Source: Hoplostethus atlanticus (taxonomy: Eukaryota; Chordata; Actinopteri; Trachichthyiformes; Trachichthyidae). Taken from it: a stretch of 64,000 nucleotides of DNA. Where the stretch lies: positions 186,001-250,000 of the forward strand of contig JAXDDX010000164.1 of NCBI GenBank assembly GCA_034670405.1, given 5' to 3'. The position numbers and the translations under genes are program-made. Numbering within the stretch: position 1 is the first letter of the stretch; every line of letters starts with the position of its first letter. Of this stretch, positions 29,018 to 64,000 are shown piece after piece. The notes beneath the pieces are model-generated. The model saw only the letters and a program-made list of their open reading frames with translations. It ran no database searches and was not told where the DNA came from.

Positions 29018-29190
29018 AGTGCACTATGCTGAGTAATAGTAAGATCCATGCTAACACTTTAGCATGCACTATGTTGAGTCATAGTAGGCTCCATGCTAAC
29101 ACTTTAGCATGCACTATGTTGAGTGATAGTAGGCTCCATGCTAACACTTTAGCACACACTATGTTGAGTGGTAGTAGGCTACTAGCATTA
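29018..29190 (-). repeat. 45-bp minisatellite, copy 2
   Basis: About 3.5 units of the same repeat as 1106-1553, in reverse orientation (CTATGTTGAGTGATAGTAGG then CTCCATGCTAACACTTTAGC). Confidence 0.9.
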
Positions 29191-47499: not shown

Positions 47500-47589
47500 T
47501 TGGGAGACTGTCCCATTTCTCAACTTAGCCATTAAATAAATGACACCAAAATTACCCCTTTGTCCCGGCAGATAGTTGGCTCTGGTGCT
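47500..47589 (-). repeat. flank shared with minisatellite copy 1
   Basis: On the minus strand it contains TGCCGGGACAAAGGGGTAAT and TTTTGGTGTCATTT, matching 1571-1602 after the first array in the same relative position. Confidence 0.75.
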
Positions 47590-47790
47590 ACATTCTAACA
47601 TTTTAGCATACACTATGTTGAGTGATAGTAGGCTCCATGCTAACATTTTAGCAGACTCTATGTTGAGTGATAGTAGGCTCCATGCTAACATTTCAGCATA
47701 CTCTATGTTGAGTGATAGTAGGCTCCACGCTAACATTTTAGCATACACTCTGTTGAGTGATAGTACAGGCTCCATGCTAACACTTAAAAG
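47590..47790 (-). repeat. 45-bp minisatellite, copy 3
   Basis: About 4.5 units in reverse orientation (CACTATGTTGAGTGATAGTA then GGCTCCATGCTAACATTTTA). Confidence 0.9.
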
Positions 47791-48145: not shown

Positions 48146-48300
48146 TTTTTGCTTAGACAGGCAAAGACAGGCACTTTGACTAACAACGTGTACAACCGTC
48201 ACAGAGGCCAAACCAAGACGGTCATTATAAAGACACTTCTTAACATCACAAGAACAAGATACGACCACATAATAAACACACACACGCACGCGCACACATA

Positions 48301-48595
48301 TGGAGGGTTAAATGTGACAATATTAAATAAATAAATCATTAAATAAATCATTAAATAAAAGGGGAAATATATAAATAATGAATTAATTAATTAAAATGGG
48401 AAATATAATATATTTAATTGTTCATTTCCACATTTATTTAATTATCTCCACATTTATTTAATTATTTCCACATTTATTTAATTATTTCCATATTTAATGA
48501 TTTATTTAATGATTTATTTATTTCATGGTTGCTGGTCTGTGTGTGCATTGTGAAATGTAAATCTGTCAACATCGTCCATCAAAGCCTGTGGGCGG
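48301..48595 (+). repeat. left inverted arm
   Basis: Inverse of 50966-51237, with three or four 21-bp tandem units at about 48420-48490. Confidence 0.9.
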
Positions 48596-48724
48596 AATCT
48601 AACATCTGATTGGTTTGACCGCACAGTAAGTCAAGAGCAATCGATAGCAGACTACTCGATGTATGGGTGTCAGCCGTGTGCCTTCACATTCTCGTCCAGT
48701 TGGTGGCGGTAAGGCGCCAATGAG

Positions 48725-49003
48725 TTGGATTGCCAACCATTTCTCAACGACCAAAAAGAACACCAAGAACTTCATCAGTTACTTGAGGAAATAGTTATGA
48801 CCTTCAACTTAATGTTACAACTCATTTATCAGAATGTCGAAAAGCTGTCCAGAACTTTTGCGGGAGGCAGCCAATTTAACCCTCTAGACCCCAGTAGAAT
48901 TCTAGAATGTTGCTGCAGTTCACTGAGAAAGTTAAATGAGCATTTTCTTACTCATTCCAAACAAACAGCTCTATTTAAAAAACAAAAAGAAATTGGTAAT
49001 TGA
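48725..49003 (+). pseudogene. unrecognised coding remnant inside the TA-flanked element
   Basis: An open frame of about 90 codons without an ATG, with QKEHQELHQLLEEIVMTF, LIYQNVEKLSRTFAGG and SRILECCCSSLRKLNEHF. It is leucine/glutamate-rich and helical-looking. I do not recognise a family. A possible continuation after a CTCCTTTCAG acceptor lies at 50100-50290 (SKYKRKHPVL, LVSPPDGLFDALAPG), with the nested hAT in the would-be intron. Whether this is the element's own gene or a captured fragment is unknown. Confidence 0.3.
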
Positions 49004-49260
49004 AAGTTGTTTTCCATTTTAAAGAACACATGGCAAAAGATGTATGTACAACTTTCTTCAGATGGTAGAAAGAAACTTTATTACTTCATTGGCATAACAG
49101 TGAAAGTTATCACATACTGTAAAACCAGTTGTACAAAATGTATGACTTCAAAAGTCAACTAATCATATCCTATAATCAATGCTATTTATTTTTACTTGTA
49201 TATAAATATTATCTATCTAAAAGAAGAGAGTCTCTTCAGGTTGAGATCACTAGTAACGTT

Positions 49261-50064
49261 CAGTGTTGGGCAAGCTACTTGGAAAGTGTAGTGAGCTAAG
49301 CTACCAGTTACTCTACATTAAATGAAGCTTCACTACACTTAAGCTACCCCCCAGAGAAATGTAGCAAGCTAAGCTACAGCAACATGGCAAAAGTAGTTTA
49401 CTACATCAAAACTATTTGTTTTTTTTTACATTGAACCAACTTCATTCCAAGTCAATGCTGATCAGTCAAACAGATAGGCAGGCAAAAAATGTTCAGTTCA
49501 ATTGTTTATTAAATTACGTGTTTGAGAGCAGCTTCTCCTTGGGGTTGAACAGTAAGCACCTGAACGCATCATTTTTCTCTGTTGTTTCACTTAAACTGAT
49601 GTATTAGCTCGAGGTACGGCCACGGCAACTCCATCGGGATCAATTCCTCTATGTCCTCACCCTCTGCCATCTTTCCATCAAGTAAACTCAAGCTCGCTGG
49701 TCTGTATTCACCTGCAGCAGACAAGTCGCAGGCATCAGCCCAAGGATTGGTAAGTGATGTCACCGTCATACGGAAGTGCTTCTGTCGGCTACACATAAAG
49801 GTCCGTGTATGGCGGTGGCGTCACTTACTGATCCTTAGCAGTTTTATTTCAGACCGCAGCAGAAAACTCCGCTGCGCTTCAGCTTCAGGAATGCCTGGGG
49901 AAATGTAGCTTGTGTGGACGCTACCTCACTACTTGATCAATAAAAGAGCTTCGCTACTGAAAAGTTATTTGATTCAGAAAACAGCGACGCTACCACCACA
50001 CTACTGAGAAATGTAGTTAAACTAGTAACGCTGCTACTTGTAGGGACGCTACTGCCCAACACTG
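49261..50064. mobile_element. 804-bp hAT element nested in the larger element
   Basis: Ends CAGTGTTGGGCAAGCTACTT and, inverted, CAGTGTTGGGCAGTAGCGTC. The flanks GTAACGTT (49253-49260) and GAACGTT (50065-50071) form an 8-bp duplication with one base lost, consistent with hAT. Subterminal GCTACACTA/GTAGC motifs are repeated. A minus-strand frame at 49587-49796 includes MAEGEDIEELIPMELPWPYL, which might be a decayed N-terminus; no transposase core is present. Confidence 0.85.
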
Positions 50065-50319
50065 GAACGTTATATGATCCACAACATTTCTCCTTTCAGT
50101 GTCAAAATACAAAAGAAAACACCCCGTACTTCACACAGACCCATACAGAAGTCTAATAAGATCAGACAACAAAAGTCGTCAAACTTATAAGGAGAAAACT
50201 CGGCATAAACTGGTCAGTCCTCCCGACGGACTCTTCGATGCACTCGCTCCCGGGAAACAGTGTCCCTCTCCGGCAGTCGCGACTAGGTAGGTTCCGCTAT
50301 GTAATCAAGTTGATTTGTG

Positions 50320-50483
50320 GCTTGTTTTATCAAACAGCAACAAGCGATTTCAATCAAAAAACCGAAACTCACAATGTCATCGTCACTTTCCATGATACAT
50401 GCCATTTCTGAATCTGTTTCACAGCATATCCTGACAGCTTCCATAAGGTTGTATAACCGGGGACGCTTAGGCGGCGCAGCCAT
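50320..50483 (-). pseudogene. possible first exon of an element-encoded protein
   Basis: The minus-strand frame starting at 50483 reads MAAPPKRPRLYNLMEAVRIC and MACIMESDDDI, then meets GTGAGT, a good splice donor. It is basic then acidic, with no domain I recognise. It points inward from the right arm, as a transposase gene might. Confidence 0.3.
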
Positions 50484-50965
50484 TTTTAGGACTACGGCGA
50501 TAAGAAAATGAAACCCAGAAAAAACTACAAAATTGTCAACGTACGACCAACATTTTACGGTTCCGGTTAATCGATGACAACTTGAAGTATATATAAAACA
50601 CAGTTCAAAACTTGATTTTCAGTTTTTTTATGCATTTTTAATGATCGGAAAATGACGGGCGCTCTTGGGCGCTATAGTGAAATATAGAACGGGCGCTCCA
50701 AGAGGCCCTGGAGAAACACCTCCGGCCACACAGTCCACTCCACAAGTCGTTGAGCAAGCTTTAACATTCAACAGAAACCCTGTCCACTGAATCAGGGTTT
50801 GCAAAATTAGACTCTATGTTCTCTACTAATGCTAACATATCTCTAACTAAGTCACGAGAGACCTCTTGGGTAGGATCCGCCATTTTTTTGTAATAAAAAC
50901 AAAGCAACAAGGAAGGATGCAGGCAAAAGCAATAGACTTAACTTGACCAACCAATCAGACGCAAG

Positions 50966-51237
50966 GCCCTCCCACAGGCTTTGATGGACGAGTTGACAGA
51001 TTTACATTTCACAATGCACACACAGACCAGCAACCATGAAATAAATAAATCATTAAATAAATCATTAAATGTGGAAATAATTAAATAAATGTGGAAATAA
51101 TTAAATAAATGTGGAAATGAACAATTAAATATATTATATTCCCCATTTTAATTAATTAATTGTTCATATATTTCCCCTTTTATTTAATGATTTATTTAAT
51201 GATTTATTTATTTAATATTGTCACATTTAACCCTCCA
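50966..51237 (-). repeat. right inverted arm
   Basis: Inverse of 48301-48595, with one fewer 21-bp unit. Confidence 0.9.
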
Positions 51238-52400
51238 TACACACACTGTCTCTCAAACCTGCAGACAATCGCAGCACAATAATGATGGTCCCTCCCTCAC
51301 ACACACACACACACACACACACACTTACACACACAGACAAGAAATATTAACAAGCTCTGATCTGCTCTGATCTATATAAGCAAATCACCATGAATTTTAT
51401 CCCCTCGGTGTCCCACTGAGCCTATTGATTGTGTTTCACCGCGGCGGTCTGATGTAACAGCTTGCCGCCACAAAGCCTCCATTATCGATTGTCCCATCTC
51501 ATCTCTGTGCTGGAATCTAATACATACATAGCGCTCCATTCCACATTTTGGTGCGGCCAACTGGGGAGGGGGGGGGAACAAAGCCTTATGCAAATCACCC
51601 CTCCTCCCAAAGCACCATGGGAGTCTGCGGCAGCATAATTATAGCACCCGCAGTGGAAATAATATGGGAATATACTGCACACTGCAAAGAAAACTCCATT
51701 GTGACAAGTCATTGAGTCTCATATTGAGTCTTAAAATCCAGTTTTGCTGGGAAAAAAAATGTCTGTCAATGAGGGTGATGCGATTTCAAGGAGGATTTTA
51801 CACAGGAAATAAAATCACTCCACCTGTTCCGAGACACTGTCACTTTTTTTCCTTGAGGTTTCTCGAAAACAAGTTGAAGAAATTAGAAATGACCTCGCCG
51901 CACACATATTGCATGTTTCGGGGGGAAAAAAACAGGACTTCAAGACTCCAAACAAGATTAAATTGCTCTATTAAGATGGAGGGTTGTTGTTTTTTTTGCA
52001 ATGTATGAGCACTTACTATGCAGCAGGAACGGTATAATTATAGTCAGAGCTCATTATGTGATTTTTTTTTCTCCCCTGTAATTGCATCTCATGCACTGCA
52101 CTGTTTTAAGATGCATTATCATAAATTCAATAAACAACACACACAAATGGGCAGACGCAAACACAAATCACAGCGCAAATACATGCAATTAACAAACAGA
52201 TATAATTAGAATTTGTAAATGGACTCCTGATGATTTTCTGTAGTTAAAGCTGGAACTGGAGTAATGGCTGTAGAGCTAAGAGCCCAGGTTTGGTCGCAGC
52301 TAAAATTAGTGGTTGGTAAATGTGAGACAGCTGAAGCAATATGTGTGTCTTGTTACCAGGGATAGAAGTAGTCTGAGCCTTGTATCTTTTAGACCAAGCA
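51238..52400. other. intron with (CA)n
   Basis: CA run at 51299-51324. 51360-51700 is non-repetitive (CATAATTATAGCACCCGCAG) and might be regulatory. No exon. Confidence 0.4.
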
Positions 52401-52900
52401 AGTGTAAAATGGTCTGGTTGATTTAGTGTTTAGATAATGTTAGCTTGTTTGCTAGCTAGCCATAGTATCTGGTCAGCTAACCATCACTGTCTTGTTGTCA
52501 ACACACTAGCTAACGTATCTAGTAGAAGCTAGCATTAGCAGTGGCTAGTAGTCACATGTTAGCATGAACTAAATGAACCTGCTGGCTAGTTAGCTAGCTA
52601 ACAGTTTGTTCAGGTTAACTGAGCTGACTCGTCTCAAGCTCCAACTCAGAGTGTTTTGGAGTGGAGACTAGGGCTAAAGACAGGACAGTTTACTGAGTCA
52701 CAGTAACCTACATTTGGAAACAAATCTACCTTATCACACTATTCACTTTTACTGAGAATGTTACTGAATGGATCTACAGACACACCACATTATTATATAT
52801 TTAGACATTAATAACTAACAGACAATTCTCCATGATAGACCTGGTGGATCGCACATTGGTGATGCAACTGCAAACACTGTAAAGCCAATTTGAATGGGAT
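52400..52900 (+). repeat. dispersed GCTAGC-rich repeat, copy 1
   Basis: Contains TAGCCATAGTATCTGGTCAG, CTAACCATCACTGTCTTGTT, CCAACTCAGAGTGTTTTGGA and CTGAATGGATCTACAGACAC, all found in reverse order and orientation at 61860-62310. No coding capacity. Confidence 0.9.
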
Positions 52901-53326: not shown

Positions 53327-53445
53327 AGCTACTACTACTCCTCCTACTACTACTACTGCTACTACAGCTACTACAACTACTACTACTACTACAACTACTA
53401 CTACAACTACTGCTACTACTGCTACTACTACCACTACCGCTACTG

Positions 53446-53482
<37 letters not shown>

Positions 53483-53606
53483 AACTACTGCTACTACAAC
53501 TACTACAACAACTAGTACTACTACTGCAACTACTACTACTACTATTACTACTACTACTACTACATCAACTACTCCTACTACTGCTACTACTGCTACTACT
53601 ACTACA
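53327..53606 (+). repeat. (TAC)n trinucleotide array, about 280 bp
   Basis: CTA/CTG trinucleotides with interruptions. Open frames through it (poly-Y, poly-V) are artefacts. Confidence 0.97.
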
Positions 53607-61859: not shown

Positions 61860-62310
61860 CTATAGATGCTTTGCAGTTGCGTCACCAATCTGCTATTAAC
61901 TAGATGTGGCTCCATCATGGAGGTCCACTGAAGAATTATCTATATATATCAGAACCAGGCTAGAAAAAGAGAGCTAGCTGAAACAGATTGTTGTGGTGTG
62001 TCTGTAGATCCATTCAGTAACGTTCTCAGTAAAAGTGAATATTCTAATAAGGTAGATTTGTCTCTAAATGTAGATTACTGTGACTGTAGCCCTAGTCTCT
62101 ACTCCAAAACACTCTGAGTTGGAGCCATTAACCTGAACAAACTGTGAGCTAGCTAACTAGCCAGCAGGCTAATTTAGCTACTGCCACTGCTAACGCTAGC
62201 TTCTACTAGCTACGTTAGCTAGTGTGTTAACAACAAGACAGTGATGGTTAGCTGACCAGATACTATGGGTAGCTAGCTAACAGGTTGACATTATCTAACA
62301 CAAAATCAAT
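61860..62310 (-). repeat. dispersed GCTAGC-rich repeat, copy 2 (inverted)
   Basis: Reverse complement of 52400-52900 with GTGTCTGTAGATCCATTCAG, TCCAAAACACTCTGAGTTGG and CTGACCAGATACTATGGG. The two copies face each other across exon A. Confidence 0.9.
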
Positions 62311-64000
62311 CAGATGTATCAGTGATGAAATTATCAGTTCCTAGTCAGAAACAGACAGAAATTGACAAAGTCTGTTCAATGCCGCCAGAGGTTATGTTAC
62401 ATCACCTGAAAACCCTCTACACAGCACACATACAGTATATAACATTAAAGAACCTCAGCATAGTTTAAAAATGCATGTTTCTGCTTATTTTTGACAAACA
62501 TGGCTGCCATGTCTCTCTCTTTCTCTCTTATTTTCTTATTCACATAAAACTGTCCAGTACTAACAGCTTTAGGAAACAAAACAATCACAGTAAAAGCGGT
62601 AAAGAAAAGCTGATGATCTAATTGGAAGTGTAAATACTTTTTATTCTGGTCTTCTCAAACACAAACATGGAGTGAGGCCAGCTATTTTAGAGGAGGCTGG
62701 CGGCACGCCATGAATTTCTCAGTTACAAGCCTTGCTATTGCTATTCACTTGCATAACAACCATACACAACAACAGCTTTTTGGACTGAATATAATTTTTG
62801 TACTAATATTCATGAACTGTCTATTAATAATTGTTCAGCAACTCATTTAACACAACCATGGCCAATTGGCGAGGTCGCAATAACGGCCCCCAAAACAATT
62901 TCTAGGGACGGTTAATAGATAACCATTTAAAAAAGCATTACCACAAATTGTTATTATCTATTGCTGCTGGCACAGGAAGACCTCGTGACTTCCAACCCAT
63001 TCAAACCCCAATGGGTAACTGCAAAAATGCATAGTGCTCCATCTGAAAATAACTCTGTTTTAAATCTTCAAAAAGTTGGCTTCTTGGAGAGAGGACAGCA
63101 ATCTATCTTTCCAGGATTTTTGCCAAAAACAACGGTCTTGCAATGATGATATACAGCTTTAATAAATATTAGAGCTACACAGTTTTTATGGGTCTGGGCA
63201 GATTGACAATATGCTAGTGATTCTAGTCAAAAGAAGCTTTAGTATGCAAAACCCTATGCAACAGAAGTGCAGCGTGGTCGATGGTATGAGATAGCAGGGT
63301 CTATTTTTAAAGAAGGCACAAAGCAGTTTTAGCTCCTCTTGCTTTCTTCTTCTGACACATCAGCATGATTTCACGGGTGCTGGCAATGTAATTCATAGAC
63401 ACACACACTCGCAGAGAAAAATAAGCCACACACTCTCACACGGCCTTAGCTGCTGAGTGTGTGAGCTAATATTCTGGTTAAGTAATTGAGATGAAAACTC
63501 AAGCTTGGCCTGAGTCAAGTGTTTCCGTCATCATCAAACTAAAAAAACAAAACACAAACTAGTGCAACAGTGCAGACTTGACTGGCCCCTGAATATAACG
63601 GGAACCCCACGTCTCCAGTTGGGTTTTATTTATACCATTAAACAGCTGACGTTATCCCCCCATACACACAGAAAACACGTCATGGCCCTGGGACCGAACC
63701 GAGTCGAGCCACTGATAATGCATTGCGACATGGCATGAACGTTGGGGTCAATGGGAAAGAAAGTCCTGCTTGAGGGAAACCCGCCAGGACGGTAGAAGTC
63801 ACACCAGCATGAGCAGCTCTAGGTTGGTGCGCGGTGCGTTCATGGGCCAGGAAGTAGCTTGGTTATTTTCTAAAGTCAGCCTAGTTTCACTCTACTCCAA
63901 TAATTCTGAATCTGCATTTCAGGTTTCATGCTCATTTCACGTGCCGCCACCCCTTCCTCCTCCAGAGCCACCTAGCAACCACTAGCGCACTTATTGAAAT
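62311..64000. other. intron, nothing assigned
   Basis: AT-rich with few repeats. I see no exon of arid5b or any other gene to the end of the window. Confidence 0.45.

Follow-up and report, generated by a model that had tools for sequence, protein, structure and literature searches.

A multi-copy foldback transposon family in Hoplostethus atlanticus with ends and target duplications that probably place it in the IS3EU superfamily

Within a 64,000-nucleotide stretch of Hoplostethus atlanticus DNA (the window; contig JAXDDX010000164.1), we delimited an element with long foldback arms that is very probably (about 0.85) a non-autonomous DNA transposon of the IS3EU (IS3EU/GingerRoot) superfamily. 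This assignment is drawn from two features, the ends of the element and the duplication of its target. The element spans 2941 bp on the plus strand (48299 to 51239; termini TATGGAGGG...CCCTCCATA), its bounds having been set from the sequence, the alignment of its arms, and sibling copies, and these bounds correct the limits of 48301 and 51237 given in the initial annotation. The same annotation had proposed a transposon with long foldback arms, which was borne out, and in the fish's own genome the element is a multi-copy family.

The foldback structure is formed by a left terminal inverted repeat at 48299 to 48615 (plus strand), whose outer part is AT-rich and self-complementary, and a right one at 50949 to 51239 (minus strand), and the arm end reads TATGGAGGGTTAAATGTGACA. 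Aligned with each other, the arms agree at 281 of 291 aligned letters, with an additional 26 gap positions, so that they are indeed near-identical as first described. Both arms match themselves in inverted orientation, and a DNA fold of the left arm has an energy of -49 kcal/mol, whereas shuffled sequences average -25.6 (z -6.9; 0 of 100 shuffles as stable). Tandem repetition was found by TRF in both arms (4.2 copies at 48424 to 48507 on the plus strand and 4.6 copies at 51039 to 51130), and together with the self-match and the fold this confirms that the arms are self-complementary and internally tandem, although the repeated unit is 20 bp long rather than the 21 bp first reported. One gap in the arm alignment also measures 20 bp, equal to a single tandem unit, and marks letters missing from the right arm opposite the left-arm units at 48424 to 48507. 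An exact 19-base pattern taken from the arm end had no match in viral contigs, and a 62-aa frame gave 11 pattern matches there, none of which was confirmed as a relative. Other repeats were noted in the window as well: one 45-bp minisatellite unit occurs in three arrays and in both orientations (1122 to 1551, 29020 to 29180, and 47587 to 47785, the last some 500 bp to the left of the element), an inverted pair of about 80% identity (52413 to 52789 and 61992 to 62314) probably represents two copies of another dispersed repeat, and a long CTA trinucleotide array of about 92 units lies at 53329 to 53605.

Comparing the left arm with the fish's own genome (632.8 Mb in 1161 contigs) returned at least 85 match rows, with 40 of 179 candidates scored; some of these rows record a single arm in both orientations, an effect of the arm's self-complementarity. 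A second arm, whole or partial, was present in 17 of 20 stretches fetched around arms, and these 17 two-armed stretches together with the window copy make up the 18-copy set used below, while L009, L015, and L025 were left out because the second arm was absent from the fetched stretch. In seven copies (L011, L017, L021, L023, L024, L026, and L028), the BLAST match at one end began at arm position 3, 4, or 10, and that end was extended by 2 to 9 bp so as to start at arm position 1 before the flanks were read. The arm match was partial at one end in L020, L022, and L023, and the count of 18 retains L011, in which the first 9 bp are replaced, and L022, in which one end is rearranged. The two arms of L028 are nearly identical, and the orientation chosen for this copy does not affect the duplication count. 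Measured across copies in bins of 100 bp, the share of letters differing from the majority was 0.8 to 3.2% in the region between the two arms and 3.1 to 6.5% over most of the arm sequence.

The copies decided what the target is. In the window, the core TGGAGGG...CCCTCCA has TA on both sides, and the initial annotation had placed the element at a TA within a CA microsatellite. The CA repeat is indeed there, and the 6-bp flanks outside the TA read CACACA on the left (48293 to 48298) and on the right (51240 to 51245), a duplication that is ambiguous at this site. Since it lies inside the CA repeat, it is uninformative taken alone and the window copy could not by itself have shown a 6-bp target, so that other copies were needed, and these do show 6 bp. 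Over the 18 copies, 14 first ends and 15 second ends have TA as the outermost letter pair (29 of 36 ends in all); the remaining seven read TG, TT, CA, or AA or are lost, and a TA directly outside the element was seen at 2 of 36 ends. The 6-bp flanks outside the TA are identical in seven copies, namely that of the window (CACACA), L016 (ACTGAC), L017 (TTCAAC), L018 (ATCACT), L020 (CATCTG), L021 (GTATTT), and L026 (CTTAAC), and L023, L024, and L028 raise the number that agree at five or more positions to 10 of 18. The duplication is poor in the other eight, with four matching positions in L010 and L012, three in L013, two in L011, L014, L022, and L027, and zero in L019; L011 and L022 apart, age, recombination, or wrong pairing may account for these. 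Summed over all copies, 76 of 108 flank letters agree. When right flanks were shuffled among copies (10,000 shuffles), the mean was 31.7 agreeing letters, 0.39 pairs matching at six of six positions (maximum 4), and 0.72 pairs matching at five or more (maximum 6), and in each of these three respects the observed value exceeded every shuffle. At the ends of the 18 copies, no direct repeat of exactly 5 bp or exactly 7 bp was found.

These counts bear directly on the reading that the element targets TA, as would a Tc1/mariner element or a relative of Harbinger that duplicates TA, and has unusually long foldback arms. The TA pairs flanking the core on both sides, and their presence at 29 of 36 ends, are what such an element would leave, but a 2-bp TA target predicts no 6-bp repeat just outside the TA, and the 10 of 18 copies that match at five positions or better, against a shuffled mean of 0.72, make this reading extremely improbable. 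It is for the same reason that we assign the TA to the element itself. The 2-bp TA duplication of Tc1/mariner was thus not found, and the 2-bp target of the initial annotation, once examined in other copies, gave way to a different duplication, with the TA being the element's own terminus and the 6-bp target lying outside it.

With the ends and the target so corrected, the element fits the IS3EU superfamily by description. IS3EU has been a Repbase name since 2013, and the parts of its description consulted give TA..TA termini and usually 6-bp duplications, and count 45 families of which 17 are autonomous, transposase-less families thus being common (PMC10045372). Fungal IS3EU families are characterized, in the corresponding excerpt, by terminal inverted repeats of over 30 bp, ends of the form TAYGG..CCRTA, and 6-bp duplications (PMC12730594). 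The window copy terminates in TATGG...CCATA, which fits this form and is kept in most copies; its terminal inverted repeats, at about 300 bp, are well within the range of over 30 bp; and, of the 18 copies, 7 have identical 6-bp duplications, 10 match at five positions or better, and 8 match at zero to four. What sets the element apart is that its arms of about 300 bp are AT-rich, internally tandem, and self-complementary and that no transposase was identified in the window copy. The consulted parts of these two descriptions (PMC10045372, PMC12730594) do not list long, internally tandem arms among the traits of IS3EU.

A superfamily with long arms and an adjoining dinucleotide was our first idea, namely ISL2EU of the PHIS group, on account of the GG start, the adjoining AT, and the long terminal inverted repeats. 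ISL2EU is known in teleosts, as far as the consulted part of PMC9179366 goes, and is described in the portion of PMC4482050 consulted as having an AT duplication, ends usually beginning with GG, and terminal inverted repeats of 6 to 259 bp. The core here begins GGAGGG after AT, so that both the start next to AT and the possibility of long arms are shared, whereas the duplication is 2 bp (AT) in that description (PMC4482050) and 6 bp here. That 2-bp AT duplication was not found, and the 6-bp direct repeat outside the TA led us to reject the idea. ISL2EU elements carry genes for a YqaJ exonuclease and a THAP/HTH transposase. No YqaJ- or Harbinger-type match was seen in the six scanned frames either, although a non-autonomous copy could lack both, and overall we consider an ISL2EU element very improbable.

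Duplications of about 6 bp are also made by Dada and Polinton elements. A non-autonomous member of one of these (Dada, or a deleted Polinton) or of an unnamed superfamily is therefore to be weighed, given that the IS3EU assignment uses the ends and the duplication, but we judge it unlikely: the TAYGG..CCRTA ends fit IS3EU as described in the excerpt consulted (PMC12730594), and Dada is portrayed, in the part of its description consulted, as inserting into multicopy small RNA genes, while the short flanks here share no common sequence as judged by eye. The IS3EU assignment also bears on what is new. The initial annotation had suggested that long, tandem foldback arms combined with a 2-bp target might represent a little-described transposon group; the TA target was wrong, and because the corrected termini and duplication match a described superfamily, this suggestion is not supported, the element being new at most as a family and not as a kind. 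In shape, the arms resemble those of Tetris, which reportedly has long inverted arms carrying tandem repeats, a likeness set by description only and one of shape, not descent. Tetris is a foldback element of Drosophila virilis, according to the part of PMC4079207 consulted.

The interior of the window copy contains open frames, as first described, that look like gene remains of an older, larger element. A 96-aa frame (48713 to 49003, plus strand) is a possible decayed exon, as is a frame that follows a splice-acceptor-like stretch recognized by eye (50099 to 50287, plus strand); a frame that starts with ATG and runs into a donor-like GTGAGT, also recognized by eye, is a possible decayed first exon (50361 to 50483, minus strand); and a short frame of 40 aa starts with ATG at 50764 to 50883 on the minus strand. 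None of the six open frames searched against Pfam, including the 96-aa and 40-aa frames, had a match above the cut-off, PA28_C being the sole listed entry at an E-value of 0.098, below it, which agrees with the earlier statement that the frames match no recognized family. Changes at codon positions 1/2/3 across copies were 16/25/16 (48776 to 49000), 18/23/35 (50099 to 50287), 13/24/11 (50361 to 50483), and 20/15/9 (50764 to 50883). A mild third-position excess (35 of 76) was thus present at 50099 to 50287, which we do not take as a sign of function, and none in the other three frames (16 of 57, 11 of 48, and 9 of 44, respectively), so that the proposed spliced coding segments stand as open frames with no good evidence of their maintenance as genes.

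A scan of the window and of fetched loci for transposase motifs found no IS3EU transposase, an enzyme of the IS3/integrase-like DDE type. In L011, L013, L017, and L020, the long additional stretches were covered by listing their open frames and by this motif scan, and a decayed or unfamiliar transposase may be present there. L018 (6,290 bp) was considered as an autonomous member and rejected, its extra length including a retroelement. This reverse-transcriptase retroelement (RVT_1, E 6.8e-20) lies inside the transposon copy, at 1706 to 2767 of L018 on the minus strand.

A second transposon is nested in the first. DNA transposons of the hAT superfamily leave 8-bp duplications and have CAGTG..CACTG-type ends, and both features were found for a segment at 49261 to 50064 (CAGTGTTGGGC...GCCCAACACTG), which we describe as a non-autonomous hAT-like insert. 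It is 804 bp long, about 27% of the element, and is preceded by the 8-bp duplication GTAACGTT (49253 to 49260) and followed by a right copy that has lost one base (GAACGTT at 50065 to 50071). Whole or partial, the insert is present in 16 of 19 copies (the 18 plus L009) and missing from three: in L020 and L023 the empty site reads GTAACGTT, and L026 has a small deletion at the site. The insert apparently entered the family once, and since its position is shared among copies, it was probably multiplied by its host element. The three insert-less copies have an extra segment of about 55 bp just right of the insert site. This segment is no marker of such copies, as a stretch of similar length is also found at that place in L017 and L018, both of which contain the insert. 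An imperfect palindrome within the insert (49742 to 49836) is perhaps a third nested layer.

Mechanistically, the family is probably mobilized in trans by a DDE transposase from another element in the genome. Such an enzyme would bind the ends of about 300 bp, with the AT-rich tandem arms as putative binding sites, would act at the TA..TA tips, and would insert the element at a target whose strands are cut 6 bp apart, and repair of the gaps would yield the 6-bp duplication. We regard it as rather doubtful, though conceivable, that the family forms an IS3EU lineage of its own, or a still unnamed relative that likewise duplicates 6 bp, in which the ends of about 300 bp are arrays of AT-rich units of about 20 bp. 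If so, tandem ends might bind many transposase molecules or extrude as hairpins, and arms as well as copies would differ in how many units they contain.

Overall, these results remove a false lead, in that a supposed foldback group targeting TA turns out to be a defective family consistent with a superfamily that already has a name, and they provide, in the hAT-like insert, an example of one transposon apparently raised in copy number by another. They also illustrate that termini resembling a dinucleotide target can mislead classification when it is made from a single copy.
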